Positions 4,893 through 32,771 of a stretch of 36,663 bases of DNA are shown here, in pieces. Within the stretch, counting starts at the first letter, position 1. Every line of letters begins with the position of its first letter. A program made the position numbers and the translations under genes. Source of the DNA: a virus; the IMG/VR virus record IMGVR_UViG_3300028361_000074, positions 1 to 36,663 of that record. One strand, given 5' to 3'. The notes beneath the pieces were generated by a model. The model worked only from the letters and a program-made list of their open reading frames with translations. It searched no databases and had not been told where the DNA came from.

Positions 4893-5032
4893 CTTATGTT
4901 TGGTTCTTGAATACGGCTATTGCGGCCTGGGCGCTGATTGCAGTCACATTGCGTTTTATGAGCGCACCAGATCATGGCCTGACGCGCTTTGATTTTGTGC
5001 TTCTCGCACTATTGATCCTGTGGGCCTCATGA
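4889..5032 (+). CDS. Two-helix membrane peptide (47 aa)
   Basis: 47 residues with two hydrophobic segments (residues ~5-23 and ~35-46) joined by a short polar loop (MSAPDHGLTRFD). It would sit in the inner membrane as a helical hairpin. The start overlaps the upstream gene and the stop overlaps the transposase ATG (ATGA), so it is probably translated with both. The local sequence is less GC-rich than its neighbours. Function unknown. Confidence 0.5.
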   Translation: MTYVWFLNTAIAAWALIAVTLRFMSAPDHGLTRFDFVLLALLILWAS

Positions 5033-7158
5033 CCGCCGCCGCGCCTGACCGTCTGTGGTGGACCGCCGACGAGATCGCCGCCGCCATGCTGCCGGATATG
5101 CCCGGCACGAAGCGCCGCGTGAACGCCCTGGCCATCCGGTGCGACTGGCGTGGGCAGGTGGAGCATGCGCGGCGGCGCACCGGGCGCGGCGGCGGGTGGG
5201 AGTATCACTGGTCGTTGTTTCCGCAGCGCGCCCAGCAGGCCCTGATCGCCACCGGCAAGCCCGCCGCTGCGCGGGCGAAACCCGCTGCGGTGAGCCGCGA
5301 TACCGCATGGGCGGCGTTCGAGGCGCTGCCGGAGGCGGTGCGCGACCGCGCCCGCGCGCGTCTGGACGTGGTGCAGGCCGTCGATAGCATGGTTGCGGGC
5401 GGTGCCGTCCGGCATCTGGCGGTGCGCGAGGTTTCGCGCCTGCGCAGCGTTGCCGACCGCACCATCTGGTCGTGGTTCGCGTTGATCGATGGCGTGGATA
5501 TTGCAGACCGTCTGCCGTATCTCGCGCCGCGCCACCGGATGGCGCAGCGGGCCGTGGTGCGCGCAACCTGCGCGCCCGAATTTCTGGACCGGCTGAAAAC
5601 CGATTACCTGCGCCCGGGCCCGCACAGTTTCAAAAGCAGCTATGACCGCGTGGCGGATGTGTGCACGGCCCGCGGGCTGGCGGTATTGAGCCCGCAGACC
5701 GCGCGCAGGTGGATGAAGACCAATGTTCCCCGCGTGACGCAGGTCTATGCGCGCGAAGGGTATGACGGGCTTGCGAAGTGCTTTCCGCCGCAGATCCGGG
5801 ACCGGTCGGGATTGTCTGCAATGGAAGGCGTGAACGCGGATTGCCACAAGATCGACGTCTTCGTGCAATGGCCCGGGATCGACAAGCCCGTGCGCCCGCA
5901 GATCGTTGCGTTTCAGGACCTGTATTCGAACATGATCCTGTCCTGGCGGGTCGATCTGAGCCCCAACAGTGTCGCGGTGATGTCGGCGTTCGGCGAGATG
6001 ATCGAGACCTGGGGTATCCCGCGGCATTGCCTGTTCGACAACGGGAAAGAGTTTGCCAACAAGTGGCTGACCGGCGGGGCGAAACATCGCTTCCGGTTCA
6101 AGATCCGTGAAGACGATCCGAAAGGCGTTCTGCAAGCCATGGGCATCCAGTTGCATTTCGCAACACCCGGCCACGGTCAGGCCAAACCCATCGAGCGGGG
6201 CTTTCGGGACTTTGCCGACCGCATCGCTCTCGATCCCCGGTTTGCCGGGGCGTATGTGGGCAAGCGGCCCGATGCCAAGCCGGAAGATTACGGTGCGCGG
6301 GCTATCCCGCTTGAGGATTTCCTGCGGGTTCTGGACGAGGGCGTGCGGGCGCACAACGCGCGGCAGGGGCGGCTTTCGGACACGGCCAAGGGGCGCAGTT
6401 TCGAGCAGACGTTTGCCGAGAGCTACGCGAAAGCCCCTGTGCGCAAGGCCACAGAGGCGCAGCACAGGTTGTGGCTGATGGGTCAGGACGTGCGCAAGCT
6501 GCACGCCACCCACGGCGCGCTGACGCTGCACAAGAACCGCTACTGGGCGGACTGGATGAACGAGTATGCCGGCCAAAAGATCGTGGCGCGGTTCGATCCG
6601 GAAAACCTGCACGCGGGTGTGTATCTTTACGGGCTGGACGGCGCGTTTCTGGGCCAAGCGGATTGCAGCGAGAAGGTCGGGTTCTTCGACCTGGTCGGCG
6701 CGCAGCTTCATGCGAAGGTCAGCCGCCAGCGCAGGCGTGCGGAGAAGGCGCTTCTGGATATCACCCGCCCCACATCCGTGGCCCAATTCGCCCGCGAGAT
6801 GGACGCCGCTGCGAAGGACGCAGCCCCCAGCCCGCTGGTGGAGGCCAAGGTGGTCGAGCTGGCCCCGGCCCGCATCCGCCAGCCGTTGATCAGCAAGCCG
6901 CTGCCGGTGCCGGACCCGGAAGCCGACGCGCGTCTGAAAGTGTTTGAGGCGGATTTCAGCAGGCCCAGGGCGACAGCCCCCGCGGCGGAGACATCATCGG
7001 CGCGGTTCTGGCGGATGCTGGATATCGAGCGACGCGCGGAGGCCGGAGAGCCGGTCACGCAGGCCGAGGCCGAGGAGCTGGCCCGCATACAACAATTGCC
7101 CGAATACCGCGCGCAGCGGACCGCCTATCAGCGGTTCGGCGAGACGGCCATCGGGTAG
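5029..7158 (+). CDS. muA: Mu A-type DDE transposase
   Basis: 709 residues from the ATG at 5029, coupled to the previous gene by ATGA. The order follows MuA: an N-terminal winged-helix Mu DNA-binding domain (~1-70, LWWTADEIAAAML), internal DNA-binding helices, an rve/RNase H-like core (~265-400), a Mu C-terminal beta-barrel (~470-570) and a C-terminal tail expected to contact the B protein. The catalytic triad is visible as D271 (NADCHKID), D337 (FDNGKEF) and E389 (PIERGF), very close to D269, D336 and E392 of MuA. It should bind the phage ends, nick them and join them to target DNA during integration and replicative transposition. Confidence 0.97.
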   Translation: MTAAAPDRLWWTADEIAAAMLPDMPGTKRRVNALAIRCDWRGQVEHARRRTGRGGGWEYHWSLFPQRAQQALIATGKPAAARAKPAAVSRDTAWAAFEALPEAVRDRARARLDVVQAVDSMVAGGAVRHLAVREVSRLRSVADRTIWSWFALIDGVDIADRLPYLAPRHRMAQRAVVRATCAPEFLDRLKTDYLRPGPHSFKSSYDRVADVCTARGLAVLSPQTARRWMKTNVPRVTQVYAREGYDGLAKCFPPQIRDRSGLSAMEGVNADCHKIDVFVQWPGIDKPVRPQIVAFQDLYSNMILSWRVDLSPNSVAVMSAFGEMIETWGIPRHCLFDNGKEFANKWLTGGAKHRFRFKIREDDPKGVLQAMGIQLHFATPGHGQAKPIERGFRDFADRIALDPRFAGAYVGKRPDAKPEDYGARAIPLEDFLRVLDEGVRAHNARQGRLSDTAKGRSFEQTFAESYAKAPVRKATEAQHRLWLMGQDVRKLHATHGALTLHKNRYWADWMNEYAGQKIVARFDPENLHAGVYLYGLDGAFLGQADCSEKVGFFDLVGAQLHAKVSRQRRRAEKALLDITRPTSVAQFAREMDAAAKDAAPSPLVEAKVVELAPARIRQPLISKPLPVPDPEADARLKVFEADFSRPRATAPAAETSSARFWRMLDIERRAEAGEPVTQAEAEELARIQQLPEYRAQRTAYQRFGETAIG

Positions 7159-7209
7159 CACGACCCGCGCGGGGAATGCCCGCCGCGGCCAACGAGGAAA
7201 GGAAATCAC

Positions 7210-7959
7210 ATGGACGGATCAACGCAGAGGGTGCGCGTGACCAATGTCATGCCGCTGCGCAATGTCATGCTGCTGGCCGAGCTGATCGAACGGGTGCGCG
7301 ACCGCGACCCGGACCTGCCTGGCATGGCATGTTTTTCCGGGCCGAGCGGTCTGGGAAAGACCAAGGCTGCGGCGTGGAGCGCCAACGAATACGGCTGCTA
7401 TCACGTTGAAATGAAGGAGAGCTGGTCGCCCAAGAAATTCGTCGCAAAGGTGGTCGAGGCGATGGGCATGACGCCGGTGGGCACCATCGGCGATATGGTG
7501 GACCAGGCGGGCGAAGAGCTGGCCAAATCCGGCCGGCCGCTTTTGCTGGACGAGGCGCATCTGCTGGCATCGACCCGGCTGATCGGCATCGTGCGGGACC
7601 TTTACGAAAGCTCGGCCGGGGGCACCGTCGTTCTGATCGGCGAGGAGATGCTGCCGCAGAAGCTGGGCCGCTGGGAACGGGTTCACAACCGCATGCTGGA
7701 CTGGGTGCAGGCACAGCCCTGCGATCTGCGCGAGGTCGGTCTGCTGGCGGGGCTCAAGTGCCCCAAGTTGCAGCTTTCGGACGCCGTTTTGCAGATGGTT
7801 CTGGACCAGTCACAGGCCCGCGCGCGGCGGATCGTCGTGAACCTGCGCCAGATTTCGGAGCACATGCTGCGCAGCGGCAAGACGTCCGTCGATGTGGACG
7901 ACGTCAAGGGTGTGCGGTTCTTTACAGGCGAGGCCCCACGGCCCCGGGCAGGGTACTGA
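7210..7959 (+). CDS. muB: Mu B-type AAA+ ATPase, transposition target activator
   Basis: 249 residues, preceded by GAGGAAAGGAA. Walker A is GPSGLGKT (residues 44-51) and Walker B is LLLDEAH (D114, E115). It lacks the long N-terminal HTH of Mu B (312 aa), so it is a short version as seen in many Mu-like phages. It should form ATP-dependent filaments on target DNA, deliver the target to the transposase and give target immunity. It lies 51 bases after the transposase and overlaps the next gene by one base (TGATG). Confidence 0.92.
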   Translation: MDGSTQRVRVTNVMPLRNVMLLAELIERVRDRDPDLPGMACFSGPSGLGKTKAAAWSANEYGCYHVEMKESWSPKKFVAKVVEAMGMTPVGTIGDMVDQAGEELAKSGRPLLLDEAHLLASTRLIGIVRDLYESSAGGTVVLIGEEMLPQKLGRWERVHNRMLDWVQAQPCDLREVGLLAGLKCPKLQLSDAVLQMVLDQSQARARRIVVNLRQISEHMLRSGKTSVDVDDVKGVRFFTGEAPRPRAGY

Positions 7960-8546
7960 TGCGCATGGGAACAGCCGGGCGCAGACCCGCCGATGCAGGC
8001 ACGCCGATCCGCCAGGACATCTGGGACGCCGTGCGGCGCATGGACGGCACGTTCGACATCAGCGCCATCGTCGCGGTGACGGGCGCGCCGCGAAGGACCA
8101 TTCAAAGTTATTTGAAGTGCCTGTGCGCGGGCGATTACATGGACTGTGTGGCGGCTGTGGGCGCGGGCAAACCGGCGCAATACCGGCTGCTGCGGGACAC
8201 CGGCGTGCATGCCCCGCGCCTGCGCCCGGACGGCACGCCCGTCACGCAGGGCCGCGTCACCGAGCAGCTGTGGACCAGCATGCGCATCCTCAAGCAGTTC
8301 ACCTACCGTGACCTGATCGAGACCGCGACGGTGCCGATCCCGGAGGCGACGGCAAAGGCCTACTGCAAGATGCTGCGCGCCACCGGGTATCTGAAGGTCG
8401 TGCGCAAGGCCGATCCGCCGAAAGGGCAGATCGCGCTTTACCGCCTGATCCGCGCTTCCGGCCCGAAAGCGCCGCAGGTGCAGCGGGTGAAGCGCATCTT
8501 CGATCCGAATACCGGCGACGTGTTCATGCAGGAGCCGCACCAATGA
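7959..8546 (+). CDS. Winged-helix-like early/middle protein (195 aa)
   Basis: 195 residues from the ATG in the TGATG overlap with the B gene. Two similar halves each look like a winged helix: IRQDIWDAVRRMDGTFDISAIVAVTGAPRRTIQSYL (~17-52) and VTEQLWTSMRILKQFTYRDLIETA, with PEATAKAYCKMLRATGYL (~90-145). It is therefore a likely DNA-binding protein with duplicated HTH domains. Proteins of this type follow B in Rhodobacter-type Mu-like phages. No function is known to me. Confidence 0.7.
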   Translation: MRMGTAGRRPADAGTPIRQDIWDAVRRMDGTFDISAIVAVTGAPRRTIQSYLKCLCAGDYMDCVAAVGAGKPAQYRLLRDTGVHAPRLRPDGTPVTQGRVTEQLWTSMRILKQFTYRDLIETATVPIPEATAKAYCKMLRATGYLKVVRKADPPKGQIALYRLIRASGPKAPQVQRVKRIFDPNTGDVFMQEPHQ

Positions 8547-8929
8547 CCGGCCCGCTGGACATCGCGCGGGAAGCATGGGGCGACGCGTTGCCCGAATGGG
8601 TCGAGCGGCTGGCCGTCGAATGTGCGGCGTCATCGCAGAACCAGGTGGCGCAGCGGCTGGGCCGGTCGGCATCGTTGGTCAGCTGCGTTTTGCGCCGGAA
8701 GTACACCGGCGACATGGCGGCGGTCGAGGATGTGGTGCGTGGCAGGCTGGAGGCATCGACGGTCGCATGCCCGGCCCATGCGAACCCGATCGCCTGGACG
8801 CGCTGCGAGGAGTGGCAGCAGCTGTCCCGGGTCTATTCCAACGTCAACAGCGAACGGCAGCGGATGTACCGCGCCTGCAACACATGCCCGTTAAACAAGC
8901 TCAGGAGGAAGACCGATGCCAAAGCGTAA
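8543..8929 (+). CDS. HTH protein with C-terminal Cys cluster
   Basis: 128 residues. The N-terminal half carries a helix-turn-helix (SQNQVAQRLGRSASLVSCVLRRKYTGD, ~31-58), followed by a Cys-containing region (VACPAHANPI, TRCEEW, YRACNTCPLN). The spaced cysteines suggest a small metal-binding site. The pattern is common in genes annotated as transcriptional regulators in the early region of Mu-like phages. It overlaps both neighbours. Confidence 0.75.
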   Translation: MTGPLDIAREAWGDALPEWVERLAVECAASSQNQVAQRLGRSASLVSCVLRRKYTGDMAAVEDVVRGRLEASTVACPAHANPIAWTRCEEWQQLSRVYSNVNSERQRMYRACNTCPLNKLRRKTDAKA

Positions 8930-9275
8930 GGGCTGCACGCCGCGGAGAGACCTTTACGTCAAGCTGCGGCAGGACGGTAAGAAGGTCGGCGAAATCGCAG
9001 ATCAGTGCGGGGTGGCGTACTCCTCAGTTTCGTCAGCCCTGTCTGCCGCCCGCGCCGCCGGTACCAGCGTCCGGATGGCTACCCCCAACCGGTTCATCGG
9101 CGACCGGCGTGCGCGCCTGCATGTGACGCCGTGCACCCGTAAGCATCTGGACGCGCGGGCCGAAATCCACGGCATGACGGCACATGATCTGGCTGACAAG
9201 ATCCTGTCGCGCATCGCGCGCAGCGAACGGCTGGTGGCCGCATTTCTCAACCCCGAACACGGAGCGAACACATGA
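8916..9275 (+). CDS. Small HTH-like protein (119 aa)
   Basis: 119 residues, starting 14 bases inside the previous gene. The N-terminus has a resolvase/homeodomain-like HTH pattern (LRQDGKKVGEIADQCGVAYSSVSSAL, ~17-42). The C-terminal part (LHVTPCTRKHLDARAEIHGMTAHDLADKILSRIARSERL) resembles the ribbon-helix-helix-like tails of small phage regulators. It is probably DNA-binding; the target is unknown. Confidence 0.65.
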   Translation: MPKRKGCTPRRDLYVKLRQDGKKVGEIADQCGVAYSSVSSALSAARAAGTSVRMATPNRFIGDRRARLHVTPCTRKHLDARAEIHGMTAHDLADKILSRIARSERLVAAFLNPEHGANT

Positions 9276-9883
9276 AAAACGAGATCCCCGCGGGCTACAT
9301 GAGCGGCCCGGACGGCACGCTGGTGCCCAAAAGCAAGGTCAAGCCGCAGCACATGCTGGAGGACGAGATGGTGCGTCACCACATCGGGCTGGCGCGGTCG
9401 CTGAACGCGGCGCTTGCGCAGTTCAAGAGGGAGGCCCTGCAGAGTTCGGAGGATTTTCTTGATCTGCTTGCGCAGGACTACCAGATCGCGCGTGGCGGGC
9501 GGAAGGGCAACGTGATCTTCCGCAGCTACGACGGCACGCTGGAGATGCAGGTGTCGGTGTCAGAGACGCTTTCGTTCGGTCCGGAGTTGCAGGCGGCGAA
9601 GGCGCTGGTGGACGCGTGCATCGCGCGGTGGAGCGCTGGCAGCAGTGACAACCTGCGGGCGCTGGTCGATCACGCCTTTCAGGTGAACAAGGCGGGCCGG
9701 ATCGACACCCAGCGGGTGCTGAGCCTGCGGCGGCTGGACATCGCAGAAGAGGAATGGGTCAAGGCCATGAACGCAATCGGCGACGCGCTGCGCGTGCATT
9801 GTTCCACCACCTATGTGCGGTTCTACCACGTGAGCGAGAGCGGCGCGCGCGCCGCGATCCCGCTCGATCTGGCGAAGGTCTGA
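9272..9883 (+). CDS. DUF3164 family protein
   Basis: 203 residues matching the DUF3164 pattern: IPAGYMSGPDGTLVPKSKVKP at the start, a helical middle, then GRKGNVIFRSYDGTLEMQVSV and FQVNKAGRIDTQRVLSLRRLDI. The family is widespread in the early/middle region of Mu-like phages and is sometimes mislabelled as a sulfate transporter; no activity is established. The protein is soluble. Its ATG overlaps the upstream stop. Confidence 0.88.
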   Translation: MKNEIPAGYMSGPDGTLVPKSKVKPQHMLEDEMVRHHIGLARSLNAALAQFKREALQSSEDFLDLLAQDYQIARGGRKGNVIFRSYDGTLEMQVSVSETLSFGPELQAAKALVDACIARWSAGSSDNLRALVDHAFQVNKAGRIDTQRVLSLRRLDIAEEEWVKAMNAIGDALRVHCSTTYVRFYHVSESGARAAIPLDLAKV

Positions 9884-9887
9884 GCCG

Positions 9888-10124
9888 ATGAAAATTGAAG
9901 AATTCGAAGCCGTGGAGAGCGAGGCGATGAGGCTGATTTCGGTGGCGGAGGGCGACAACGTCCGGTCCAGGGCCATTTTTCACGCGGCAGCAGTGCTCGC
10001 GGTGTCTCAGGCTGCCGGGTCAGAGGATGCTGAGAAATGCTTGAATGGCATCCTGCACTACGTTTCGGGCGTCGCGAATTTGCAAGTCAAGGTCCAGTTG
10101 CTAAAAAAGGGAGGGCTCCACTGA
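9888..10124 (+). CDS. Hypothetical middle-region protein (78 aa)
   Basis: 78 residues, mostly helical and acidic in the first half. The start lies four bases after DUF3164, and the stop overlaps the gemA start by one base (TGATG). No motif recognised. Confidence 0.6.
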   Translation: MKIEEFEAVESEAMRLISVAEGDNVRSRAIFHAAAVLAVSQAAGSEDAEKCLNGILHYVSGVANLQVKVQLLKKGGLH

Positions 10125-10576
10125 TGAGCCGTAACTTGCAGAAACTGATCCATGTGGGCTGTCGCGAACTGGGGATCGATGCCGACATGCGGCGCGAATT
10201 GCAGGTTTTGACCACCGGCAAGCCCAGCATGGCCGACATGACGGAGGCCGATCTGACCGCTGTGCTGGACGTGCTGAAGGATCGCGGGTTCCAGCCAGGC
10301 GCATTCAAGGGCGGGCCGCAGCGTCATCCGCGGGCGCCGCGCGCCGATCTGCGCCTGGTGCACGTGCTGTGGGCCGCGTTGGGGCGTGCGGGCAAGCTGG
10401 ACAAGCCGGGGCGCGTGGGGCTGAACACGTTCGTGCGGCGGCGGTTCGGCGATGCCTGGGGATCGGTGCCCGCCGATATCGACATGCTGCGCGACGCCGC
10501 GCAGATCAGCGCCGTGGTCGAGGCATTGAAACAATGGTGCGCCCGTGAAGGCGTGCCCGTGGATCGGGCGCGGTGA
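10124..10576 (+). CDS. gemA: GemA / Mu gp16-like regulatory protein (DUF1018)
   Basis: 150 residues. The N-terminal half fits the GemA family: LQKLIHVGCRELGIDADMRRELQVLTTGKPSMADMTEADLTAVLDVLKDRGF. The C-terminal half (FVRRRFG, LRDAAQISAVVEALKQW) also fits. In Mu, GemA affects host gene expression and DNA supercoiling; the biochemical basis is unclear. It is one base-overlapped with both neighbours. Confidence 0.88.
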   Translation: MSRNLQKLIHVGCRELGIDADMRRELQVLTTGKPSMADMTEADLTAVLDVLKDRGFQPGAFKGGPQRHPRAPRADLRLVHVLWAALGRAGKLDKPGRVGLNTFVRRRFGDAWGSVPADIDMLRDAAQISAVVEALKQWCAREGVPVDRAR

Positions 10577-10830
10577 TGCGGCGCCGGTGCGAGATATCCG
10601 ACCACGCCCTGCTGCGCTATATCGAGCGCGTGCTGGGCTATGATGTCGAGGGGCTGCGCGCCGAGATCCAGCGGCAGGTGCGCCCGGCCGTCGAGGTCGG
10701 CGCCAGCAGCATCCGTGCGGACGGGTTCGTCTACCGCATCCAAGGCGACATTGTGGTGACGGTCTACCGGATCGGCAGCCAAGACATACACGGCCCCCGC
10801 GCCAAGCGTGGCAAGGCGCGCCGTGGGTGA
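10576..10830 (+). CDS. Small conserved phage protein (84 aa)
   Basis: 84 residues. The start has SDHALLRYIERVLGYDVEGLRAEI, a pattern I have seen in small phage proteins near gemA; the second half is beta-rich and ends with a basic tail. The ATG in the TGATG overlap is chosen, although GTG three bases earlier is possible. Function unknown. Confidence 0.65.
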   Translation: MRRRCEISDHALLRYIERVLGYDVEGLRAEIQRQVRPAVEVGASSIRADGFVYRIQGDIVVTVYRIGSQDIHGPRAKRGKARRG

Positions 10831-11200
10831 CTGGATAGGCCTTGCCCGCGAGATCGTCGATCTGATCGGCGAACCGGCGGCGGTGAAGCTGCTGGCCGCA
10901 CGGGGCGGAACCGAGGTGTTCATCCCGGACCAGGTGACGGACAGCAAACTGTCGTCGATTGTCGGGCTGCCCGCAGCGGTGAAATTGCGGGAGCATTTCG
11001 GGCCGGGGCCATTGCGACTGCCCACCGGATCGGCGCGCGGGGCCGGGGCGCGCCGCGCGCGGGCGATGCAGATGCTGCGCGAGGGCGCCACGACCCGCGA
11101 GGTCGCCATGGCGTGCGATCTGCACACGCGCACAGTCGAGAATTACAGCGCGCAGATGCAGCGGGTGCAAGATGCCCGCCAGACCGGGTTCAACTTCTGA
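10823..11200 (+). CDS. mor: Mor-family middle/late transcription activator
   Basis: About 125 residues from GTG at 10823 (an upstream GTG at 10808 is an alternative). It shows the Mor/C layout: an N-terminal dimerisation part with GGTEVFIP (~33-40), then LPAAVKLREHFG, then a C-terminal HTH (MQMLREGATTREVAMACDLHTRTVENY, ~90-115). Mu Mor activates the middle promoter and its paralogue C activates late promoters. Only this one family member was found, so it may switch on lysis and head genes directly. It is the last gene before the 127-base control region upstream of the endolysin. Confidence 0.85.
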   Translation: MGDWIGLAREIVDLIGEPAAVKLLAARGGTEVFIPDQVTDSKLSSIVGLPAAVKLREHFGPGPLRLPTGSARGAGARRARAMQMLREGATTREVAMACDLHTRTVENYSAQMQRVQDARQTGFNF

Positions 11201-11327: not shown

Positions 11328-11876
11328 ATGCGAATGCTCAACGAAATCACGATCCACGGTTCGGTCACCAGCCGTGACTGGATGGCGAGGCAATCGATTG
11401 AGGAGAAGGTCGCCGAGATCCGGCGCTGGCATCTGGCGCGTGGGTTCAACGACATCGGCTATCATTTCGTGATCGACCGTGACGGCAAGATCTGCCGGGG
11501 GCGTGACGTGGAACGCGTGGGCGCAGGCGTCGCGAACCAGAACACCGGCAAGATCCATATCTGCCTTCTGGGCGGACTTGACGGGCACGACAACGATTGG
11601 TTTGCCTCCCATTACACGCTCTTTCAGGACAGTGCGCTGCGCGACCTGATCGAGGTCCTGTGCCGTGAATACGGCAATCTGGCGGTGCGCGGCCACAACG
11701 ACCACGCCGCCACGGCGTGCCCGCAATTCCAGGTGGCGGATTGGCTGGCGCGGGTTCCGCACGTCCCGCGCGTCCCACGCATACCGGGTGAGGCCCGTGC
11801 TGCAATTTCCCAAGAACCATCGATACCCGTCTGGCTGGTGCGCCTGATCGGCTGGCTGAAAGGACGCATGTCATGA
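11328..11876 (+). CDS. Endolysin: N-acetylmuramoyl-L-alanine amidase, T7-lysozyme type
   Basis: 182 residues with an amidase_2 domain over ~1-140. The zinc ligands of T7 lysozyme (H17, H122, C130) line up with H10 (ITIHGS), H123 (VRGHND) and C131 (ACPQF). DIGYHFVIDRDG and GRDVERVGAGVANQN are also characteristic. It should cut the amide bond between MurNAc and L-Ala in peptidoglycan. The tail after residue ~140 is Pro-rich and then amphipathic (PVWLVRLIGWLKGRM), perhaps membrane-associated. No signal peptide, so release depends on the adjacent holin candidate, with which it overlaps by ATGA. Confidence 0.93.
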   Translation: MRMLNEITIHGSVTSRDWMARQSIEEKVAEIRRWHLARGFNDIGYHFVIDRDGKICRGRDVERVGAGVANQNTGKIHICLLGGLDGHDNDWFASHYTLFQDSALRDLIEVLCREYGNLAVRGHNDHAATACPQFQVADWLARVPHVPRVPRIPGEARAAISQEPSIPVWLVRLIGWLKGRMS

Positions 11877-19837: not shown

Positions 19838-19840
19838 TCC

Positions 19841-21210: not shown

Positions 21211-21215
21211 GGTCT

Positions 21216-21768: not shown

Positions 21769-21769
21769 C

Positions 21770-25152: not shown

Positions 25153-25763
25153 TGGCGGAATTCAGCGAGAGTGCGATCTGGCACAGCTCGGTCTATCAGA
25201 TCGAGACGACAGACCCGGTCCGGGGAGGTGCGCCCAGCCGTTCGCCAAAAGCCGGGCCCATCAACATCGGCATCGGCGAACTGGCGGACCGAACGCTGTT
25301 TCTGAAGGGCGCGACAGAGCGGGGTGTTCCCGCGTGGTCCGCCACCCGGACCTATCTGGCCAATGACGCCGTCACGCATCTGGGGCGGCTCTGGCTCAGT
25401 CTCACGATCCACTCCGACAGCGCGCCCGCGGTGGGCAATGCCAACTGGAGGCGCCTGTGGTCGGATGCGGACGGGGGGCTGACCGATACCGCGAACAGTA
25501 CCGTCGATGTCAGCCCGAGCGGGCTGATCACGCAAATAGTGCTAGGATCTACAAACGCGCAGGGCCTTGTTGCGGTCACTTTTCCACAAACGTTTCCCAA
25601 CGCCTGCCGTGGCGTCTGGGCAACGCATAGTGGCACGGATGTGATGGCCATCGCCGAGTTATCTGGCACGCGATCGACGGGGGGCGTGTCGCTGCGCACC
25701 CGCCGTCTGGATGGCAGTGTGTCGGCCAACTTAACCCTGCAAATTCTGGCCATCGGGAGGTGA
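25152..25763 (+). CDS. Tail fibre protein (P2 H position)
   Basis: 203 residues from the ATG overlapping the I stop (TAATG). It is short for a fibre. The C-terminal ~80 residues (LVAVTFPQTFPNACRGVWATHSGTDV and later strands) resemble the gp53-like C-terminal domain of tail fibres, which mediates receptor contact. The N-terminal part should attach to the baseplate. The P2 H position before the fibre-assembly gene supports the call. Confidence 0.75.
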   Translation: MAEFSESAIWHSSVYQIETTDPVRGGAPSRSPKAGPINIGIGELADRTLFLKGATERGVPAWSATRTYLANDAVTHLGRLWLSLTIHSDSAPAVGNANWRRLWSDADGGLTDTANSTVDVSPSGLITQIVLGSTNAQGLVAVTFPQTFPNACRGVWATHSGTDVMAIAELSGTRSTGGVSLRTRRLDGSVSANLTLQILAIGR

Positions 25764-25768
25764 TCGCA

Positions 25769-26293
25769 ATGCACTATTCACCGGGTTCGGGATTTTTTTA
25801 TGCGGCTGGCAGCGATCTGCCGCTTGATGCCATGCCGGTCACCGCCGCGCGCCATGCGGAGCTGATGGACGGTCAGGCCACCGGCAAGCGGATCGTCACC
25901 GGGCCCGGAGGCCATCCCGTGCTGGTCGACCCGGTCACGCCCGACCCGACGCTTGGCGATGCCGAACGCGAACGCGACCGGCGCATCGCGGCGGGCACCA
26001 CAGTCACGGTCACCGGCATCACGGGCGGCATCCCGATCAAGGGGCGCGGGGCGGATCGCGATAATATTTCCGGGCTGGCCACGATCGCGCTGGCACGCAT
26101 GGCCGCATCGGACACAACCACCATCCGTTTTCGCGACACCGCCGGGACCCGGCACAACCTGACACCGGCCCAGACCATGCAGATGTTCGCGGGGGGTGCC
26201 GCCTATATCGAAGCGGTGCACGCCGTGGTCTGGGACTGGGACGACAACGGCCCGGTTCCCGCAGATTTTAGCGACGACAAACACTGGCCCTGA
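25769..26293 (+). CDS. DUF4376 fibre-associated/assembly protein (P2 G position)
   Basis: 174 residues from ATG 25769, with an excellent GGAGGTGA 5 bases upstream. The C-terminal ~110 residues match DUF4376 (ERDRRIAAGTTVTVTG, DRDNISGLATIALARMA, FRDTAGTRHNLTPAQTMQMFAGGAAYIEAVHAVVWDW). Such domains occur in tail fibre or fibre-assembly proteins. It occupies the place of P2 G. Its stop lies in the first unit of a 14-base tandem repeat. Confidence 0.78.
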   Translation: MHYSPGSGFFYAAGSDLPLDAMPVTAARHAELMDGQATGKRIVTGPGGHPVLVDPVTPDPTLGDAERERDRRIAAGTTVTVTGITGGIPIKGRGADRDNISGLATIALARMAASDTTTIRFRDTAGTRHNLTPAQTMQMFAGGAAYIEAVHAVVWDWDDNGPVPADFSDDKHWP

Positions 26294-26346
26294 AAAGCTG
26301 GCCCTGAAAAACCGGCCCTGAAAAACTGGCCGTGAGGCCCTGAAAA
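26284..26346 (+). repeat. 14-bp tandem repeats (CTGGCCCTGAAAAA) before the sheath gene
   Basis: Three 14-base units at 26284-26297, 26298-26311 and 26312-26325, then degenerate copies up to the AAGGAG ribosome-binding site of the sheath gene. The first unit includes the stop codon of the upstream gene. The unit length is not a multiple of three, but only the first unit is coding. It could expand or contract and change the distance to the sheath gene. Confidence 0.75.
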
Positions 26347-26358
26347 AGGAGACAAGCC

Positions 26359-27867
26359 ATGGCATTCCTGCACGGCGTCGAAACCATCGAGAAAGACACC
26401 GGCCTGCGCCCGATCGCACTGCTGGACACATCCACCATCGGCCTGATCGGCACCGCCCCCGATGCCGCAAGCGCCCGCGCCGCCACCCTGGTCGCGGGCA
26501 CTGGCAGCAGTGGGTTCATGCTGACCGCCGATGCGGCGGGCACGGCGGGCAATGCGATCACGCTGAACCTGATCGCGCCGCAGACCAACGGCGCGTCGCT
26601 TGGCGTCACGGTCACGGGCACCGCCATTGCGGTCAGCCTTGCCACCGACACCGGCGGCATCGTGACATCCACGGCCCTACAGGTCATCACCGCGATCAAC
26701 GACAATGCCGACGCCGACGCGCTTGTCACCGCAGCGGCGGTTCAGGGCCAGCCCACCACGGGCGTTGTGCGCCGGTTTCTGGCACCGCGCGCGTTGGCGG
26801 GCGGAGCCCTGGAGCCGTTCCCGCTCAACACGCCGGTGCTGGTGGCAGGGTCGCGCACCGAGGCCGCAGGGCTGGGCATGACCGGCGATCTGCCGCGTGC
26901 GATTGACGGGATCTTCGACCAGGGCGGCGCGCGCGTCATCGTGGTGCGGGTCGAGACAGGGGAGAATGCCGCCGCAACGCTGGCCAACGTGATCGGCGGC
27001 GTGGACGGCAATGGCAACAACACGGGCATGCAGGCATTTCTGGATGCAAAGGCCGCGACCGGCGTTGTGCCCAAGGTGCTGATCGCGCCGGGCTACAGCG
27101 CGAACGTGGCGGTCACATCCGACATGATCGCCATCGCCGACCGGCTTCGCGCCGTCGTGCTGGCGGACGGGCCCAACACCACCGACGCCGAGGCGATTGC
27201 GTTCCGGGACAATTTCGGGTCGCAGCGCGTGATGGTGATCGATCCGTGGGTCACCGCCTTCGACACCGTGACGCAGACCGAAGTGGTGCTGGCCCCCAGC
27301 CCGCGCGCGGCGGGCATCATCGCGCGCACCGACGCGGAGCGCGGCTTCTGGTGGTCGCCCAGCAACAAGGTGATGAACGGCATCACCGGCACCGCGCGGC
27401 CGGTCAGCTATGCGCTGAACGATCCGCTGACGCGCGCCAATCTGCTGAACGAAAACGAGGTCACGACCATCATTCAGGATCGCGGCTGGCGGTTGTGGGG
27501 CAACCGGAGCACCACCGCAGATCCGCTGTGGGCGTTCCTGGCCGTTCGGCGCACCGCCGATGCGGTGGAGGAGAGCATCGAGGCCGCGCAGCTTTGGGCG
27601 ATGGACCGCCCTTTCAGCGCGCAGCTGCTGCGCGACATCCGCGACAGCGTGGCCGCGTTCCTGCGGACGCTGCAGGCGCAGGGCGCAATCCTTGGCGGCA
27701 CATGCTGGCTGGATCCGGAACTGAACACCGAGACCACGATGAAGGCCGGGCGGCTGTTCGTGAACTACGATTTCGAGCCGCCCGCACCGCTGGAGCGGCT
27801 GACGTTTCACGCCTACCGCAACGGCGATTATTACAGCGATCTGATCGCCGAAGCCAACAACACCTGA
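26359..27867 (+). CDS. FI: Tail sheath protein (P2 FI / Mu L-like) with inserted domain
   Basis: 502 residues. The ends match P2-type sheath: FLHGVETIEKDTGLRPI, STIGLIGTAPDA (~26-37), FPLNTPVLVAGSR (~154-166), VLIAPGY, and WAMDRPFSAQLLRDIRDSVAAFLRTLQAQGAILGGTCWLDPELN. P2 FI is about 396 residues; the extra ~115 residues (38-150) are inserted exactly between APDA and FPLNTPVL. The insert is a beta-rich, Gly/Ala/Thr-rich domain (TADAAGTAGNAITLNLIAP, TAIAVSLATDTGGIVTST) likely exposed on the sheath. The protein contracts during infection. Confidence 0.94.
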   Translation: MAFLHGVETIEKDTGLRPIALLDTSTIGLIGTAPDAASARAATLVAGTGSSGFMLTADAAGTAGNAITLNLIAPQTNGASLGVTVTGTAIAVSLATDTGGIVTSTALQVITAINDNADADALVTAAAVQGQPTTGVVRRFLAPRALAGGALEPFPLNTPVLVAGSRTEAAGLGMTGDLPRAIDGIFDQGGARVIVVRVETGENAAATLANVIGGVDGNGNNTGMQAFLDAKAATGVVPKVLIAPGYSANVAVTSDMIAIADRLRAVVLADGPNTTDAEAIAFRDNFGSQRVMVIDPWVTAFDTVTQTEVVLAPSPRAAGIIARTDAERGFWWSPSNKVMNGITGTARPVSYALNDPLTRANLLNENEVTTIIQDRGWRLWGNRSTTADPLWAFLAVRRTADAVEESIEAAQLWAMDRPFSAQLLRDIRDSVAAFLRTLQAQGAILGGTCWLDPELNTETTMKAGRLFVNYDFEPPAPLERLTFHAYRNGDYYSDLIAEANNT

Positions 27868-27877
27868 GGAGAGCGAC

Positions 27878-28372
27878 ATGTATCCCCGCACGATCCGGAA
27901 TTTCAACGCGTTCATCGACGGCACTTCGTATTTCGGAAAAGTGTCCGAAGCGAAGATGCCCATGCTGCAGCTCCAGACCGAGGAGTTCCGCGGCGCAGGC
28001 ATGGACGCCCCCATCGCCATCGACATGGGCCAGCAGGCCATGACGGCCGAGATCACGTTCCAGGAATGGTCGCCCGAGCTGATCACGCTGTTCGGCACCA
28101 AGCAGCGCCTTGTCCTGCGCCCCGGCGCGATGGGCGAGGATGATTTCACCGCCGACACGTTCATCGCAACGATCGGCGGGCGCTGGTCGACGGTGGAGCC
28201 GAACAACCTGCGCCCCGGGCAGGCGGCGCCCCTGAAGCTGATCACCAGCTGCGACTATTTCCGGCTGGAGCTGAACGGCACCGAGCTGTGCGAGATCGAT
28301 GTCGAGAACGGCAAGCGCGTGATCGGCGGCGTCGATCAGCTGGAAGGTATCCGCCAGGCCATGGGGTTCTGA
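27878..28372 (+). CDS. FII: Tail tube protein (P2 FII / Mu M-like)
   Basis: 164 residues: YPRTIRNFNAFIDGTSYFGKVSEAKMPMLQLQTEEFRGAGMDAPI and MTAEITFQEWSPELITLFG match the P2 FII family. It forms the inner tube inside the sheath. Ten bases after FI, with GAGGAG upstream. Confidence 0.93.
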   Translation: MYPRTIRNFNAFIDGTSYFGKVSEAKMPMLQLQTEEFRGAGMDAPIAIDMGQQAMTAEITFQEWSPELITLFGTKQRLVLRPGAMGEDDFTADTFIATIGGRWSTVEPNNLRPGQAAPLKLITSCDYFRLELNGTELCEIDVENGKRVIGGVDQLEGIRQAMGF

Positions 28373-28572
28373 TGGGTCAGCGCGCCGAACGCCGCCGCGC
28401 CGCCCGACACCGCGCCGCCCTACACCGCGCCGCCTGTAGGACAGCCAAGCAGGAGGTTAAAGCGCGGCAGGTGCGTGCCGCCACCCCGAAGACCCCACCG
28501 AAGACCCCACTGAAGACGGGCAAACGCCGGTCGCGGCTTGCCGCCTTCATCACCAGTTTAAGGAGCCATTGA
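28372..28572 (+). CDS. Small strongly basic protein (66 aa)
   Basis: 66 residues starting in the TGATG overlap with FII. It is extremely Arg/Lys/Ala-rich (QRAERRRAARHRAALHRAACR, then KTPPKTPLKTGKRRSR), and two short DNA tandem repeats produce the RAALHR- and PKTP-type repeats. It could be a nucleic-acid-binding peptide or an open frame created by repeats. The upstream overlap and the absence of a gap before the next gene make translation plausible. Confidence 0.4.
   Translation: MGQRAERRRAARHRAALHRAACRTAKQEVKARQVRAATPKTPPKTPLKTGKRRSRLAAFITSLRSH
28407..28515 (+). repeat. Two short tandem repeats in the basic-protein frame
   Basis: ACACCGCGCCGCCCT-type 15-base units near 28407-28436 and CCGAAGACCCCA-type 12-base units near 28486-28515 (about three copies). 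Both unit lengths are multiples of three. Confidence 0.55.
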
Positions 28573-28887
28573 ATGGACCATGAAGCGACCGCCGATGTGC
28601 CAAACGTCTGGCCCAAGGTCCTGACCGCGCCGCGGGTTACACCCCAGATGCTGGATGACGAGGTCGTGGCCGAGGAGTTCCACGTGTTCCCCGGGTCTTG
28701 CCTCACCGTCTGCGCGCTGACACTGACCAATGGCTTCGTGGTGACCGGCGAAAGTGCGTGCGCGGCCCCCGCGAATTTCGACGCTGAGCTGGGCCGCATC
28801 ATCGCGCGCCAAAACGCGCGAACGAAGATCTGGCAGCTGCTGGGCTTTCGCCTTCGCGACAGGCTTGCCACCCAAACCCCCACCTGA
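28573..28887 (+). CDS. Gp49-like conserved phage protein
   Basis: 104 residues: EEFHVFPGSCLTVCALTLTNGFVVTGESACAAPANFDAELGRIIARQNARTKIWQLLGFRLRDRL. This is the Gp49/66 family of phage proteins of unknown function, widespread in tailed phages. Its position between tail tube and E is unusual for P2 and suggests an inserted gene. Confidence 0.85.
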   Translation: MDHEATADVPNVWPKVLTAPRVTPQMLDDEVVAEEFHVFPGSCLTVCALTLTNGFVVTGESACAAPANFDAELGRIIARQNARTKIWQLLGFRLRDRLATQTPT

Positions 28888-28899
28888 AGGACAACCACC

Positions 28900-29178
28900 A
28901 TGGACACCAAGACCATCACCCTGGTCCGCCCGATCGAACGCGGCGAAAGCAAGATGACCAAGCTGACCCTGCGCGAGCCGACATCCGGCGATCTGCGCGG
29001 CCTGAAACTGGCCGATGTGCTGCAACTGGATGTAAACGCGCTGATGAACCTGTTGCCGCGCATCTGCATCGAAGGGTTGACAGGACCCGAAATCGCAAAG
29101 CTGTGCCCCGCAGATCTGGCCCGGGCAGGCGGCGCCGTTGTGGGTTTTTTCGACCAGGAGGCGGCGACGGAGGCCTGA
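28900..29178 (+). CDS. E: Tail assembly chaperone (P2 E / Mu gp41-like)
   Basis: 92 residues: ITLVRPIERGESKMTKLTLREPTSGDLRGLKLADVLQLDVNALMNLLPRICIEGLTGPEIAKLCPADL, the phage TAC (E/gp41) family. It helps assemble the tube around the tape measure. A slippery T TTT TTC lies at 29145-29151 near its 3' end, giving the longer E' product (separate entry). One base of the stop overlaps the next ATG. Confidence 0.92.
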   Translation: MDTKTITLVRPIERGESKMTKLTLREPTSGDLRGLKLADVLQLDVNALMNLLPRICIEGLTGPEIAKLCPADLARAGGAVVGFFDQEAATEA

Positions 29179-29315
29179 TGCCCGACGACGTCGAAGACGC
29201 CATGGCCGACATCGCGCTGATCTACCGGTTCGGGCACGCCGAAATGTGCGCGATGTCGCTGCCGGAACTTGCCCGCTGGCGCGACCGGGCGCGCGAGCAA
29301 GCACAGGAGCAGTAG
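28900..29315 (+). CDS. E' -1 frameshift fusion product of the tail chaperone
   Basis: Reading shifts from the E frame to the -1 frame at T TTT TTC (29145-29151; zero-frame codons GGT TTT TTC). This joins residues 1-84 of E to 54 residues that include the GpE-like domain (ADIALIYRFGHAEMCAMSLPELARWRDRARE), giving 138 residues. The -1 frame stays open from before the site to 29313. P2 makes E+E' by the same kind of -1 slip on a T-run. Frameshift efficiency cannot be judged here. Confidence 0.8.
29145..29151 (+). promoter_or_regulatory. Programmed -1 frameshift slippery site TTTTTTC
   Basis: The heptamer has the X XXY YYZ form in the correct phase for E, and both tRNAs can re-pair in the -1 frame. 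GC-rich sequence follows, which could slow ribosomes; no clear pseudoknot was worked out. Confidence 0.78.
29178..29315 (+). CDS. GpE-family (E' domain) reading frame
   Basis: 45 residues from ATG 29178: DIALIYRFGHAEMCAMSLPELARWRDRAREQ is the GpE-family signature. It may be translated separately from the TGATG overlap, but its main use is likely as the C-terminal part of the E-E' frameshift protein. Confidence 0.7.
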   Translation: MPDDVEDAMADIALIYRFGHAEMCAMSLPELARWRDRAREQAQEQ

Positions 29316-31157
29316 ATGTCCGACCTCAACATCGCCATGATCCTGCGCCTGGTCGATCAGGTCACCGGACCGTCCAGGCGGGTGCTGTCGTCGATGCGCG
29401 AGGTCGGTGGCTCTGTCACAAGCGTGGCAGACCGGCTGGATGGTGCTGCGCAGCGACAGATTGCGTCGATGCGCGGGCAGGTAATCGAAGTCGGCGCATT
29501 GAGTGCGTCGATCTATGCCGCTGTGCGGCCCGCCATCCAGTTTGAGACCGCTATGGCCGGGATTAACAAAGTCGTCGATTTCGAGACGCCTGATGCGCTG
29601 AAAGCGCTTGGTCAGGAAATCCAGAACCTGTCAACTTCTGGGGGTATCGCGCAGACCGCGACCGACATTGCAGCCATCATCGAGGAAGCTGGCAAGGCGA
29701 ACCTGATCAACAAGGATCTGGGCATCGAGGCCCTGAACGCCGAGATGATCGAGTTTGCGCGCAACACCGCCCAGATGGCCGTTGCATTTGAAATTCCGGC
29801 ACAGCTGGCGGGCCAAACCATGGCGATCTGGAAGAACGCTCTTGGCATGGGGACCGAAGAAAGCCTGATTTTCGCCGATGCCATAAACCACACCGCAAAC
29901 AACATCGGCACGACCGAAGCCAAGCTGATCGATATGATCGGCTATGTCGGCGCGACTGCGAAAAGTGCAGGCCTGGCAACTACCGAAATCGTCGGCCTGT
30001 CTGCGGCCATCCTTTCTGCCGGGGCATCGCCGGAACGCGCAGCCACTGGCCTGAAGAATTTCACCAACGCGCTGACCCGGGGCGCGAGCGCGACTGACAG
30101 GCAGCTTGCGATTTTCGAACAGCTTGGCCTGGACGCGACGGAGATGGCCGAGCGGATGCAGGTCGACGCAAAGGGCGCGATTATCGACGTGCTGGAGCGG
30201 CTGCGCGAACTGCCCGCCGCCGTCCAGAACGCTGCGATCGGGGATTTGTTCGGCCAGGAAGCAACCAGCGCAATTACGCCCTTGATCGGCAATCTCGACA
30301 ACCTGCGCGCGTCGTTCGATCTGGTGGCGGATCCGGCGGAATTTGCCGGGGCCATGCTGCGTGAATTCGAAGCACAGTCGGGCACGACCGAGAACCAGAT
30401 CAAACTGCTGATCAATAACGTGAACGCGCTGGTGACGACATTCACAACCGAGCTGCTGCCCGCGATCAAGGATGTGATCCAAGCAGTCGCCCCGTTTCTG
30501 CAGCAAATGCGCGAATGGGTTTCCGCAAATCCGGAACTGGTCGCCGCTTTGGGACAGGCGGCACTGGCCTTGTTGGGGTTCAAGGCGGCGTCTTTGGCTG
30601 TGAGCGTTGCGCTTGTCGGCATCATCAAGCCGGTCGCATTGGTCGCGAAGGGCATCGGACTTCTGCTGTCGGTTGTCGCGGTTGCAAACCCGTTCAGCCT
30701 GTTGATTGCGGGCGCTGCACTTTTGACCGCCGCGATCTTTGCCCCATGGGATGAAATCGGGGCTTACATCGATGGCAAGCTGTCAGGCATCAGCCTGTAC
30801 GACAGCGGCAAGGCGATGATCCAGACGCTGTGGAGCGGTGCGAAAGGGGTCATCCCCCGGATGGTCGCGGACATCAAGGCGCGCATCGCGGGGATACTCC
30901 CCGACTGGCTGTCCAACTATCTGTCGGGTGGGGGCGGGGACAGTGCGGCACCGGACGCCGCGGTTGACATGACCGGCCCGCTGCGCCCGCCGCGGGCGGA
31001 TGGAACCTACACCCAGAACAACACCATCACCATCACGCCGCATCCCAACCAGAACCCCGAGGCCATTGCGAACGAGGTCATCCGCCAGCAGGCCAGAAGG
31101 GGCCGCGGCGGACCCGCCATGCCGCATCTTTATGACACGCCCGAGGACGCGCAATGA
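29316..31157 (+). CDS. Tape measure protein (P2 T / Mu gp42 position)
   Basis: 613 residues. The N-terminus (~1-330) is a TP901-type tape-measure domain (FETAMAGINKVVDFETPDALKALGQEIQNLS, GLATTEIVGLSAAILSAGASPERAATGLKNFTNAL). Helical coiled regions follow, then hydrophobic segments at ~405-475 (LVAALGQAALALLGFKAASLAVSVALVGI and further), which may enter the host membrane during DNA injection. It sets tail length. Starts directly after the GpE stop. Confidence 0.93.
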   Translation: MSDLNIAMILRLVDQVTGPSRRVLSSMREVGGSVTSVADRLDGAAQRQIASMRGQVIEVGALSASIYAAVRPAIQFETAMAGINKVVDFETPDALKALGQEIQNLSTSGGIAQTATDIAAIIEEAGKANLINKDLGIEALNAEMIEFARNTAQMAVAFEIPAQLAGQTMAIWKNALGMGTEESLIFADAINHTANNIGTTEAKLIDMIGYVGATAKSAGLATTEIVGLSAAILSAGASPERAATGLKNFTNALTRGASATDRQLAIFEQLGLDATEMAERMQVDAKGAIIDVLERLRELPAAVQNAAIGDLFGQEATSAITPLIGNLDNLRASFDLVADPAEFAGAMLREFEAQSGTTENQIKLLINNVNALVTTFTTELLPAIKDVIQAVAPFLQQMREWVSANPELVAALGQAALALLGFKAASLAVSVALVGIIKPVALVAKGIGLLLSVVAVANPFSLLIAGAALLTAAIFAPWDEIGAYIDGKLSGISLYDSGKAMIQTLWSGAKGVIPRMVADIKARIAGILPDWLSNYLSGGGGDSAAPDAAVDMTGPLRPPRADGTYTQNNTITITPHPNQNPEAIANEVIRQQARRGRGGPAMPHLYDTPEDAQ

Positions 31158-31567
31158 TCGCGTCGCTGACCATGATGGCGTTGGGCGGGTTCCGGTTCGG
31201 CGTGAACCGCGCCAGCTATCAGACGCTGCAGCGCACGGCGATGTACCGCTGGGCGACGCTGGACCGCGCAGGCCGGGACCCGGCGGCGCAGTTTCTGGGG
31301 CCCGGGGTCGAAACCATCACGTTGAACGGCACCATTTACCCCCATTTCAAGGGCGGTTTACGGCAGGTTGAAGCGATGCGCCTGGTGGCCCGCCTGGGCG
31401 AGCCGATGATCCTGGTCGATGGTCTGGGCTTTGTTCTGCAACGCTGGGTAATCCTGCGCATTTCCGAGACGAAAGGCACATTTCTGCGCGACGGCGCGCC
31501 CCGGCGCATCGACTTTTCGGTGGATCTGCAAAGCTACGGGGAGGACGGCACATGGCCGAATATCTGA
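31154..31567 (+). CDS. U: Tail protein U (P2 U-like)
   Basis: 137 residues: MIASLTMMALGGFRFGVNRASYQTLQRTAMYRWATLDRAGRDPAAQFLGPGVETITLNGTIYPHFKGG and GWVLRI/FSVDLQSYGED-type C-terminus match the P2 GpU family, a tail-completion protein. ATGA overlap with the tape measure. Confidence 0.92.
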   Translation: MIASLTMMALGGFRFGVNRASYQTLQRTAMYRWATLDRAGRDPAAQFLGPGVETITLNGTIYPHFKGGLRQVEAMRLVARLGEPMILVDGLGFVLQRWVILRISETKGTFLRDGAPRRIDFSVDLQSYGEDGTWPNI

Positions 31568-31761
31568 CCGGGCGCGGCGAGGTGCTGGACCAGATCGTGC
31601 TGGCTCAGTACGGGCGGCGTGACGTGCTGGTTGCCGTGCTGGATGCCAATCCCGGCCTTGCCGAGCTGGGGCCGATCCTGCCCTACCGCACGCGCGTCAC
31701 GCTGCCCGATCTGCCCGCACCGTCCCAGACCCCCGTGCTGCGCCTGTGGGGCCGGTCGTGA
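31552..31761 (+). CDS. X: Tail protein X (LysM-like)
   Basis: 69 residues: MAEYLTGRGEVLDQIVLAQYGRRDVLVAVLDANPGLAELGPILPYRTRVTLPDLP, the Phage_tail_X/LysM-like pattern. In P2-like phages it contacts the tail tube or spike assembly. Overlaps U by 16 bases. Confidence 0.92.
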   Translation: MAEYLTGRGEVLDQIVLAQYGRRDVLVAVLDANPGLAELGPILPYRTRVTLPDLPAPSQTPVLRLWGRS

Positions 31762-32771
31762 AGCCGTTGTTCCGCGTCACCGCCGACGGCGAGGACGTGA
31801 CCGCGCGGGTGGCTGACCGGCTGCTGGAGCTGCGCATTCTGGACGCCGCGGGGATCGAGGCCGACACGCTGAGCCTGACGCTCGATGACCGTGACGCGCG
31901 GCTGGCCGCGCCGCCGCACCAGTCGGTCATCCGTGTCTGGCTGGGCATGCAGGGGCCGCTTGGCACCCCGATGGCCAGCGTCCCGTTGACGCCGATGGGC
32001 GCGTTTCGCACCGACGATACCGAGCTCACCGGGCCGACCCGCCAGATGCGTATCAGCGCCACCGCCGCCGACATGAGCGGCGGCATCCGCAGCCCGCGCA
32101 CCCGTGCGTGGGAAGGGGCCAGCCTGGGCGATATCCTGCGCACCATCGCGGGCGCGCATTCCCTGACGCCCGCCGCCGACGCCGCCCTGGCCGCCCATGC
32201 GCCCGGGTTTGTGGCACAGACGGCCGAGAGCGACCTGAACCTGCTGACCCGCCTCGCGCGGCGCGTGGGCGGCACCGTGAAGCCCGCAGACGGGCGGCTG
32301 GTGCTGGCGCGCCGCGGGGCGGGCACCGCCGCCGACGGCACGCCGTTGCCGCCCGTGATGCTGGCACCGTCCGACGCCAGCAAATGGTCCTGGCACGCCG
32401 CCGACAGGGGCCGATACGCCAGCGCAGAGGCGTCCTGGACCGACCTGGGCACCGGGGCCGTCAACAAGGTGATCGTGGGTGAAGGCGATCCGCGCCGCGT
32501 GCTGCGCCACGTTCACGCCACCGAAAATGAAGCCGCGCGCGCCGCACAGGCCGCGTTGGCCGATGCCGCGCGCGGGGCCCAGACCGCCCGCATCAACCTG
32601 ATCCGGTTCGTGCCTTCGGCATTTGCCGGTGCCCGCATCCGGTTTGCCGAGGTCCGCCCGGAATGGGCGGGCGACTGGTCGGTGCACCGCGCACATCACA
32701 TTCTGACCGACCGGCTTGTGACCGAGCTGGATCTGGAACGCCCCCCCATTTCGCCCGCCACAGGAGCCTGA
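31758..32771 (+). CDS. D: Tail hub protein D (P2 D / Mu gp44-like)
   Basis: About 337 residues from GTG at 31758, which overlaps the X stop (GTGA); GTG at 31746 is an alternative. KPLFRVTADGEDVTARVADRLLELRILDAAGIEADTLSLTLDDRD, VRIWLG-like PHQSVIRVWLG, and DLNLLTRLARRVGGTVKPADGRLVLARRG match the phage late-control/GPD hub family. It forms the baseplate hub that holds the spike. Last gene of the P2-ordered block. Confidence 0.93.
   Translation: MKPLFRVTADGEDVTARVADRLLELRILDAAGIEADTLSLTLDDRDARLAAPPHQSVIRVWLGMQGPLGTPMASVPLTPMGAFRTDDTELTGPTRQMRISATAADMSGGIRSPRTRAWEGASLGDILRTIAGAHSLTPAADAALAAHAPGFVAQTAESDLNLLTRLARRVGGTVKPADGRLVLARRGAGTAADGTPLPPVMLAPSDASKWSWHAADRGRYASAEASWTDLGTGAVNKVIVGEGDPRRVLRHVHATENEAARAAQAALADAARGAQTARINLIRFVPSAFAGARIRFAEVRPEWAGDWSVHRAHHILTDRLVTELDLERPPISPATGA

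Follow-up and report, generated by a model that had tools for sequence, protein, structure and literature searches.

Two described phages come closest to the arrangement treated here, in which Mu-type transposition and head genes are followed by a tail in the gene order of phage P2. Ochrobactrum phage POA1180 (Abaiavirus; KX669658) was isolated, is infectious and has a contractile tail by transmission electron microscopy, and the paper describing it did not call it Mu-like (PMC5492332). The second is the Citromicrobium prophage vB_CibM-P1, presented in 2017 as a phage of the Mu-like-head group with a myovirus-like tail and an origin by tail replacement (PMC5488378); its likeness to the DNA studied here is drawn from that published description. 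By 2025, tail recombination among Mu-like phages was taken as documented in a further Citromicrobium paper (PMC12486242). The subject of this analysis is the IMG/VR virus record IMGVR_UViG_3300028361_000074, a stretch of 36,663 nucleotides referred to below, at its full length, as the window. POA1180 shares with it a Mu-type A, terminase, DUF935-type portal, F, protease, gp36, G and gp37, followed after gp37 by V-J-I-fibre-sheath-tube-tape-U-X-D.

The record is a complete transposable (Mu-type) temperate phage genome. The explanation strongly favoured by the evidence is that it represents a phage of marine Rhodobacterales in which a Mu-type head and a P2-family contractile tail were paired once, in the ancestor of the lineage, and have been inherited together since, the early block of the genome being exchanged. 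What was observed for this purpose comprises gene content, gene order, genome ends, two host flanks, trees and breakpoints.

Head and tail genes

Gene identities were taken from PHROG and Pfam scans of the window proteins, and the head and tail region reads as follows.

12845 to 13363 (start approximate), plus strand: terminase small subunit, Mu Gp27 (DUF3486; PF11985)
13509 to 15026, plus strand: terminase large subunit (PHROG/Pfam scan)
15562 to 17073, plus strand: portal of the Mu gp29/DUF935 type (PHROG 113)
17752 to 18654, plus strand: F, minor head protein (PHROG 220)
18875 to 19837, plus strand: I, head protease (PHROG 328)
19841 to 20767, plus strand: T, major head protein (PHROG 371)
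21337 to 21768, plus strand: gp36 head-tail adaptor (PHROG 195)
21608 to 22225 (open reading frame limits, real start downstream), plus strand: G/S-type virion morphogenesis protein (Phage_tail_S; PF05069)
21961 to 22809 (open reading frame limits, real start probably near 22220), plus strand: gp37 tail terminator (PF08873, Mu Gp37)
22802 to 23374, plus strand: V, baseplate spike with GpV Apex motif (Pfam)
23361 to 23684, plus strand: W, baseplate (by position and homologues in relatives)
23703 to 24599, plus strand: J, baseplate (PF04865)
24580 to 25152, plus strand: I, baseplate (Tail_P2_I; PF09684)
25059 to 25763 (open reading frame limits), plus strand: tail fibre (PF21882, PHROG 4209)
25760 to 26293, plus strand: tail fibre assembly protein, a chaperone (PHROG 188)
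26359 to 27867, plus strand: FI sheath with about 110 extra residues, 38-152 (family scan; split matches in relatives)
27878 to 28372, plus strand: FII tube, Phage_tube family (PF04985)
28573 to 28887: gp49/gp66-family open reading frame between FII and E (PF13876)
28900 to 29315, plus strand: E (28900-29178) and E' (to 29315), with the -1 slippery site
29316 to 31157, plus strand: T, tape measure (PHROG/Pfam scan)
31154 to 31567, plus strand: U (PHROG 76)
31552 to 31761, plus strand: X (PHROG 46)
31746 to 32771, plus strand: D, baseplate hub (Phage_GPD; PF05954)
32773 to 36096, plus strand: 1107-aa right-end protein (fn3 and BNR_4 matches, both below cut-off)

An earlier reading of the DNA, made by a model without database searches (the sequence-only reading), had listed Mu-type transposition and head genes from the transposase to gp37, and the scans identified every gene it named, in the same order. 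Its P2 tail order from 22802 likewise holds as V-W-J-I-fibre-chaperone-FI-FII-E/E'-T-U-X-D, except that the frame at 28573-28887 belongs to the gp49/gp66 family and is not E. W (23361-23684) matched no family in the PHROG and Pfam scans, and has homologues in relatives. The G/S-type gene is located between gp36 and gp37, the ATG of V at 22802 overlaps the gp37 stop TGA at 22807-22809, and X is placed between U and D.

The tail is P2-type by family, order and expression signal. V-W-J-I-H-G and FI-FII-E/E'-T-U-D are all present, together with an FII tube and a GPD hub, and the -1 frameshift is represented by its signal. This is an in-phase heptamer, T TTT TTC, at 29145-29151 in E, from which the -1 frame runs to 29315, immediately before the tape gene at 29316. 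Nine relatives also have the slippery site (TTTTTTC in eight, TTTTTTG in one), and P2 has TTTTTTG at the equivalent place of E, whereas Mu uses a -2 shift. The marks of a Mu-type tail (sheath, tube and tape before the baseplate, Mu M tube, N/P hub and -2 frameshift) are not found in the window.

By homology, a P2-like course of tail assembly would be expected, with a hub of D, X, U and V and wedges of W, J and I, an FII tube limited by the tape and enclosed by the FI sheath, and E/E' made by -1 frameshifting. The gp37 product would act as terminator and contact gp36 and G at the neck, and the Mu-type terminase would fill Mu-type heads.

Two features of individual tail-region genes may be added. 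The extra residues 38-152 of the sheath recur in three relatives (G005, G007 and G008) and are missing from G001, G003, G004 and most others. The protein encoded after D has a low-GC C-terminal half, only its N-terminal 208 or so residues match G008, and it is a probable extra receptor-binding protein.

The gp37/V boundary and the head and tail trees

The sequence-only reading had placed the junction between the two modules at the gp37/V boundary (22802-22809), next to a tandem repeat. This boundary is not a visible recombination seam. The nearest relative, G008 (the genome of locus L197, Phycocomes zhengii), aligns with the window DNA continuously over 21337-24304 at 73.7%, and per-gene identity to it is similar before 22802 (gp36 69, G 77, gp37 61) and after it (V 78, J 63, sheath 74, tube 87, U 86, D 79). 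Moreover, two contigs from other metagenomes cross the position at 99.96% (L015 over 17694-31027 and L069 over 22276-26860). The repeat itself (22762-22800, 15-nt) lies in frame within the gp37 C-terminus, similarity to relatives continues across it, and it marks no breakpoint.

In the gp37 tree the gene of this lineage is found with P2-type tails and not with Mu-tailed phages (modest support), and P2-order phages without Mu-type head matches also have gp37 ahead of V, which suggests that gp37 travels with the P2-order tail type. On both counts the ancient join of head and tail, presumably a product of recombination upstream of gp37, appears better placed between G and gp37.

The head tree (five proteins, 40 rows) and the tail tree (six proteins, 37 rows), like all trees used here except a 12-taxon pair, carry 'quick' supports from the Shimodaira-Hasegawa-like approximate likelihood ratio test (SH-aLRT). 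In the head tree a single clade (100) unites the 11 P2-tailed phages around the window; its sister group is the siphovirus-tailed Mu-type phages of Rhodobacterales (98), and the Mu-tailed phage B23 comes next. The tail tree recovers the same lineage as one clade (99), apart from P2, ZRG1, AcaML1 and other non-Mu phages. With 12 shared taxa, the window with G008, G005 with G007, G001 with G003, and the POA1180 group are recovered on both sides; most nodes agree, and only the placement of G196 and the order of G004 and G112 differ between head and tail. Such matching clades and branching indicate that head and tail have travelled together for long. Building head and tail trees separately was the check proposed by the sequence-only reading: one lineage appears in both, and the recent exchange lies instead in the transposition block. 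It had also named, as evidence against a hybrid, a grouping of the tail proteins with Mu-type phages of the same P2-like order, and this is the grouping found.

The order of A, head and P2-type tail recurs in G001, G003, G004, G005, G007, G112 and G008 (in G008 with the tail on two contigs), and it is not due to chance, being shared by about ten diverged relatives. Related heads carry Mu, siphoviral or P2 tails, so tail exchange has happened at some depth. In a census of 298 genomes of the family of G008, one per species (with few tail queries, so that proportions are rough), the portal was matched in 31 at E<=1e-20. Of 22 typed neighbourhoods, siphoviral-tail genes were found in 17 and a P2-type tail in five (G008, G112, G196, G131, G122), with Mu-type tail genes matched in none of the 22; the P2-tailed kind is thus a regular minority type.

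Several observations concern neighbouring arrangements and repeats. A gp37-like terminator stands before a P2-order tail in L198, L200, L201, L206, L207, L209 and AcaML1 (L007), where no Mu-type head gene was matched. An alternative P2-family order (V, sheath, tube, tape, U, X, D, then J, I) occurs in L026, L043, L063 and L202/L028, which form one clade in the tail tree, and in the first three of these Mu-type head genes lie upstream. Between fibre chaperone and sheath, a 14-nt tandem repeat at 26279-26335 (about four copies, AAAAACTGGCCCTG) resembles the 15-nt repeat at the end of gp37. A ACTGGCCC-like motif before V and before the sheath was considered as a recombination tag, but its core 8-mer is near chance (8/100 shuffles); a looser 12-mer exceeds chance, all its matches but one being the two tandem arrays. 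Since the similarity of relatives continues across the gp37/V array and the 12-mer is, but for one match, confined to the arrays, the idea was set aside.

Genome ends, host flanks and the exchanged block

The ends of the phage and the genes to the left of the head region are listed below.

9 to 36, plus strand: left terminal inverted repeat TGTGGTGTGACACTTATTCCTGCAGTAA, a 28-nt arm 96% complementary to 36506-36533
1378 to 1872, minus strand: helix-turn-helix repressor-like gene (HTH_3)
3883 to 4701, plus strand: ParB-N-like gene of the G008-like lineage (76% aa)
5020 to 7158, plus strand: transposase A, chimeric near residue 186 (PHROG 310)
5573 to 8890, plus strand: exchanged block, 72.5% DNA identity to the Pelagibaca siphovirus vB_PeaS-P1, with G008-like DNA on either side
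7210 to 7959, plus strand: transposition protein B (PHROG 296)
9272 to 9883, plus strand: DUF3164-family gene, again of the G008-like lineage (75% aa, versus 38% to vB_PeaS-P1)
10037 to 10576, plus strand: GemA (PHROG 286)
10808 to 11200, plus strand: Mor-type activator (PHROG 836)
11328 to 11876, plus strand: amidase endolysin (PHROG 822)
36506 to 36533, minus strand: right terminal inverted repeat ending in ...CCACA, pairing with 9-36; L213 joins the same end to another host gene

The 28-nt terminal repeats differ by one mismatch, start with TG and end with CA, and bound the whole genome, so that the phage extends from 9 to 36533, beyond the 5029-32771 covered by the sequence-only reading. 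The transposition genes are a Mu-family DDE transposase, in which D274, D340 and E392 align with D269, D336 and E392 of MuA, and B. By homology, A and B would act on the TG...CA ends and the genome would replicate by transposition.

A search with the end sequence found one other contig, L213. From 28764 up to the right end it shares 99.9% identity with the window, and beyond that it continues into a different bacterial gene (D-cysteine desulfhydrase/ACC deaminase-like, read from translation); the same right end beside two different host sites is as expected of transposition. The right flank of the window contains a transposase gene of the IS6 family. A plasmid of Pseudohalocynthiibacter, a marine member of Rhodobacterales, carries a gene 86% identical to it, which makes a marine Rhodobacterales host probable. 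In a relative the IS6 gene is uninterrupted and reads CACGATCCGTGG; the window begins TGCGCCGG. The left flank (8 bp, 1-8) and the right flank (36534-36663) come from different insertions, which means that copies at different sites, or packaged host DNA, have been merged in the contig; a 5-bp target duplication would not be visible between such flanks. All three flanking pentamers (GCCGG, TCCGT and CCGGT) agree with NYSRN, which PMC12486242 quotes as the Mu-type target consensus.

G008 has a similar end sequence upstream of A, the vB_PeaS-P1 record has one at one of its ends, and POA1180 also contains such sequences. In the last of these, Mu-type end-like sequences are located at 27283 and 28445 (KX669658.1 27283-28445; locus L006 6284-7446), with an 83-nt inverted copy of the former near 28037. 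The reported chromate-resistance fragments of POA1180 (27279-27945) fall between the end-like sequences; rather than phage genes, they probably represent host DNA or an artefact of assembly next to the phage.

Recent exchange is visible in the early block. The window is closest to G008 on both sides of 5573-8890, and within this block it resembles the DNA of vB_PeaS-P1 and, over 5602-8889, that of G027. Correspondingly, A is 58-72% identical to G008 and 38-50% to vB_PeaS-P1 over residues 1-180, versus 45-65% and 82-87% over residues 241-540. The best crossover is at residue 186 (nt about 5578), aligned with MuA 182 and, by the domain limits of MuA, presumably within the end-binding region. Fisher's test gives p 5e-23 at the best-chosen breakpoint, and a permutation test p 0.0005. 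On its sequence, A is a chimera in which about 186 N-terminal residues derive from the P2-tailed lineage, and the catalytic part, with B, from a siphovirus like vB_PeaS-P1.

In the A tree P2-tailed and siphovirus-tailed phages are intermixed and the P2-tailed rows do not form one clade. The approximately unbiased test rejects monophyly of the P2-tailed Rhodobacterales phages (p 0.0021, nine rows) and of the window with G008, G007 and G005 (p 7e-8). Together with the breakpoints, this makes the transposition block, and not the tail, the fast-moving part. On the favoured explanation, the early block (the end of A, B and two more genes) is freely exchanged with siphovirus-tailed relatives, most recently at 5.58-8.89 kb. 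A more general proposal, for and against which the balance is about even, is that in transposable phages of Rhodobacterales a 'transposition engine' is reassorted separately from the virion by crossovers inside the transposase, which keep the end-recognising part and swap the catalytic core, the B-contact domain and B as a unit. The A gene of the window offers a natural test of which parts of a Mu-type transposase need to correspond to the phage ends and which to B.

Alternative readings and known phages

If a Mu-type and a P2-like phage had swapped a complete tail module at the gp37/V boundary fairly recently, this would explain Mu-type head families next to P2-type tail families, the other tails borne by related heads, and the fact that the best sheath and J matches in named phages are to non-Mu phages such as ZRG1. 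Such an event is nonetheless improbable, as similarity does not drop at 22802, the head and tail phylogenies share the clade and most of its branching, and gp37 belongs with the P2-type tails. Alternatively, Mu-type tail genes might have been rearranged to a P2-like order without any exchange with P2-like phages, as the remote homology of Mu and P2 tails (V, J, sheath) and the match of gp37 to the Mu Gp37 family would permit. However, the tube, D and I belong to the FII, Phage_GPD and Tail_P2_I families, the frameshift site in E is of the P2 type, an iterated profile search found no Mu-tail counterpart for sheath, tube, U, X or D, and P2-order tails occur in phages without Mu heads, all of which leaves this course very unlikely. 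An assembly chimera of two phages could be suspected in a metagenomic virus record whose two host flanks do not stem from one insertion, but with the proposed junction spanned by contigs of other metagenomes and the gene order shared by diverged relatives its probability is almost negligible.

The deep hybrid origin, a Mu-type head joined to a P2-lineage tail, thus stands, and the proposed junction and timing do not: whole-tail exchange remains as an event at depth, neither recent nor at gp37/V. Some points weigh against the favoured explanation or limit it. In the head tree POA1180, G122 and G131 fall into a clade of their own, and their tail branches are long; the POA1180 group may have acquired its tail separately, making two independent pairings. 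Head and tail place G196 differently, so that some later exchange is possible. Support in the gp37 tree is modest and most trees have 'quick' SH-aLRT values. For the exchanged block, the Fisher p was taken at the breakpoint chosen as best, a choice for which the permutation test allows. Finally, the assembly steps are inferred from the genes by homology.

Among named phages, Escherichia phage Mu, Vibrio phage martha 12B12 and Shewanella phage MuM16-2 share the transposition and head gene set of the window, and differ in a tail ordered sheath-tube-tape-N-P-45-46-47-48. Conversely, Enterobacteria phage P2, Pseudomonas phage ZRG1 and Acidithiobacillus phage AcaML1 share the tail proteins and the V-W-J-I-fibre-FI-FII-E-T-U-D order, and no Mu-type transposase or portal match was found in them; X lies between U and D in the window, AcaML1 and ZRG1, and in the head region in P2. 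The window falls outside Peduoviridae, having a Mu-type head and A/B transposition genes instead of the P2 head (Q,P,O,N,M,L), tyrosine integrase and A nickase. vB_PeaS-P1 shares A (68%) and B (79%) with the window, its Mu-type head is related and its terminal sequence is similar; it differs, like the other siphovirus-tailed transposable phages of Rhodobacterales, Rhodovulum phage vB_RhkS_P1 and RC1, in its siphoviral tail, the head order in this group being F-I-T-gp36-G or F-G-I-T, without gp37. POA1180 has the same arrangement, but with 26-48% protein identity to the window and a separate head clade, which place the window outside the genus Abaiavirus. As the arrangement of POA1180 and the description of vB_CibM-P1 were already known, the window adds a new lineage to a known kind. 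Beside siphovirus-tailed and Mu-tailed sisters stands a whole lineage of Mu-type phages with P2-type tails. The tail type is thus rarely replaced and thereafter passes down together with the head, whereas the transposition block moves at a fast pace.

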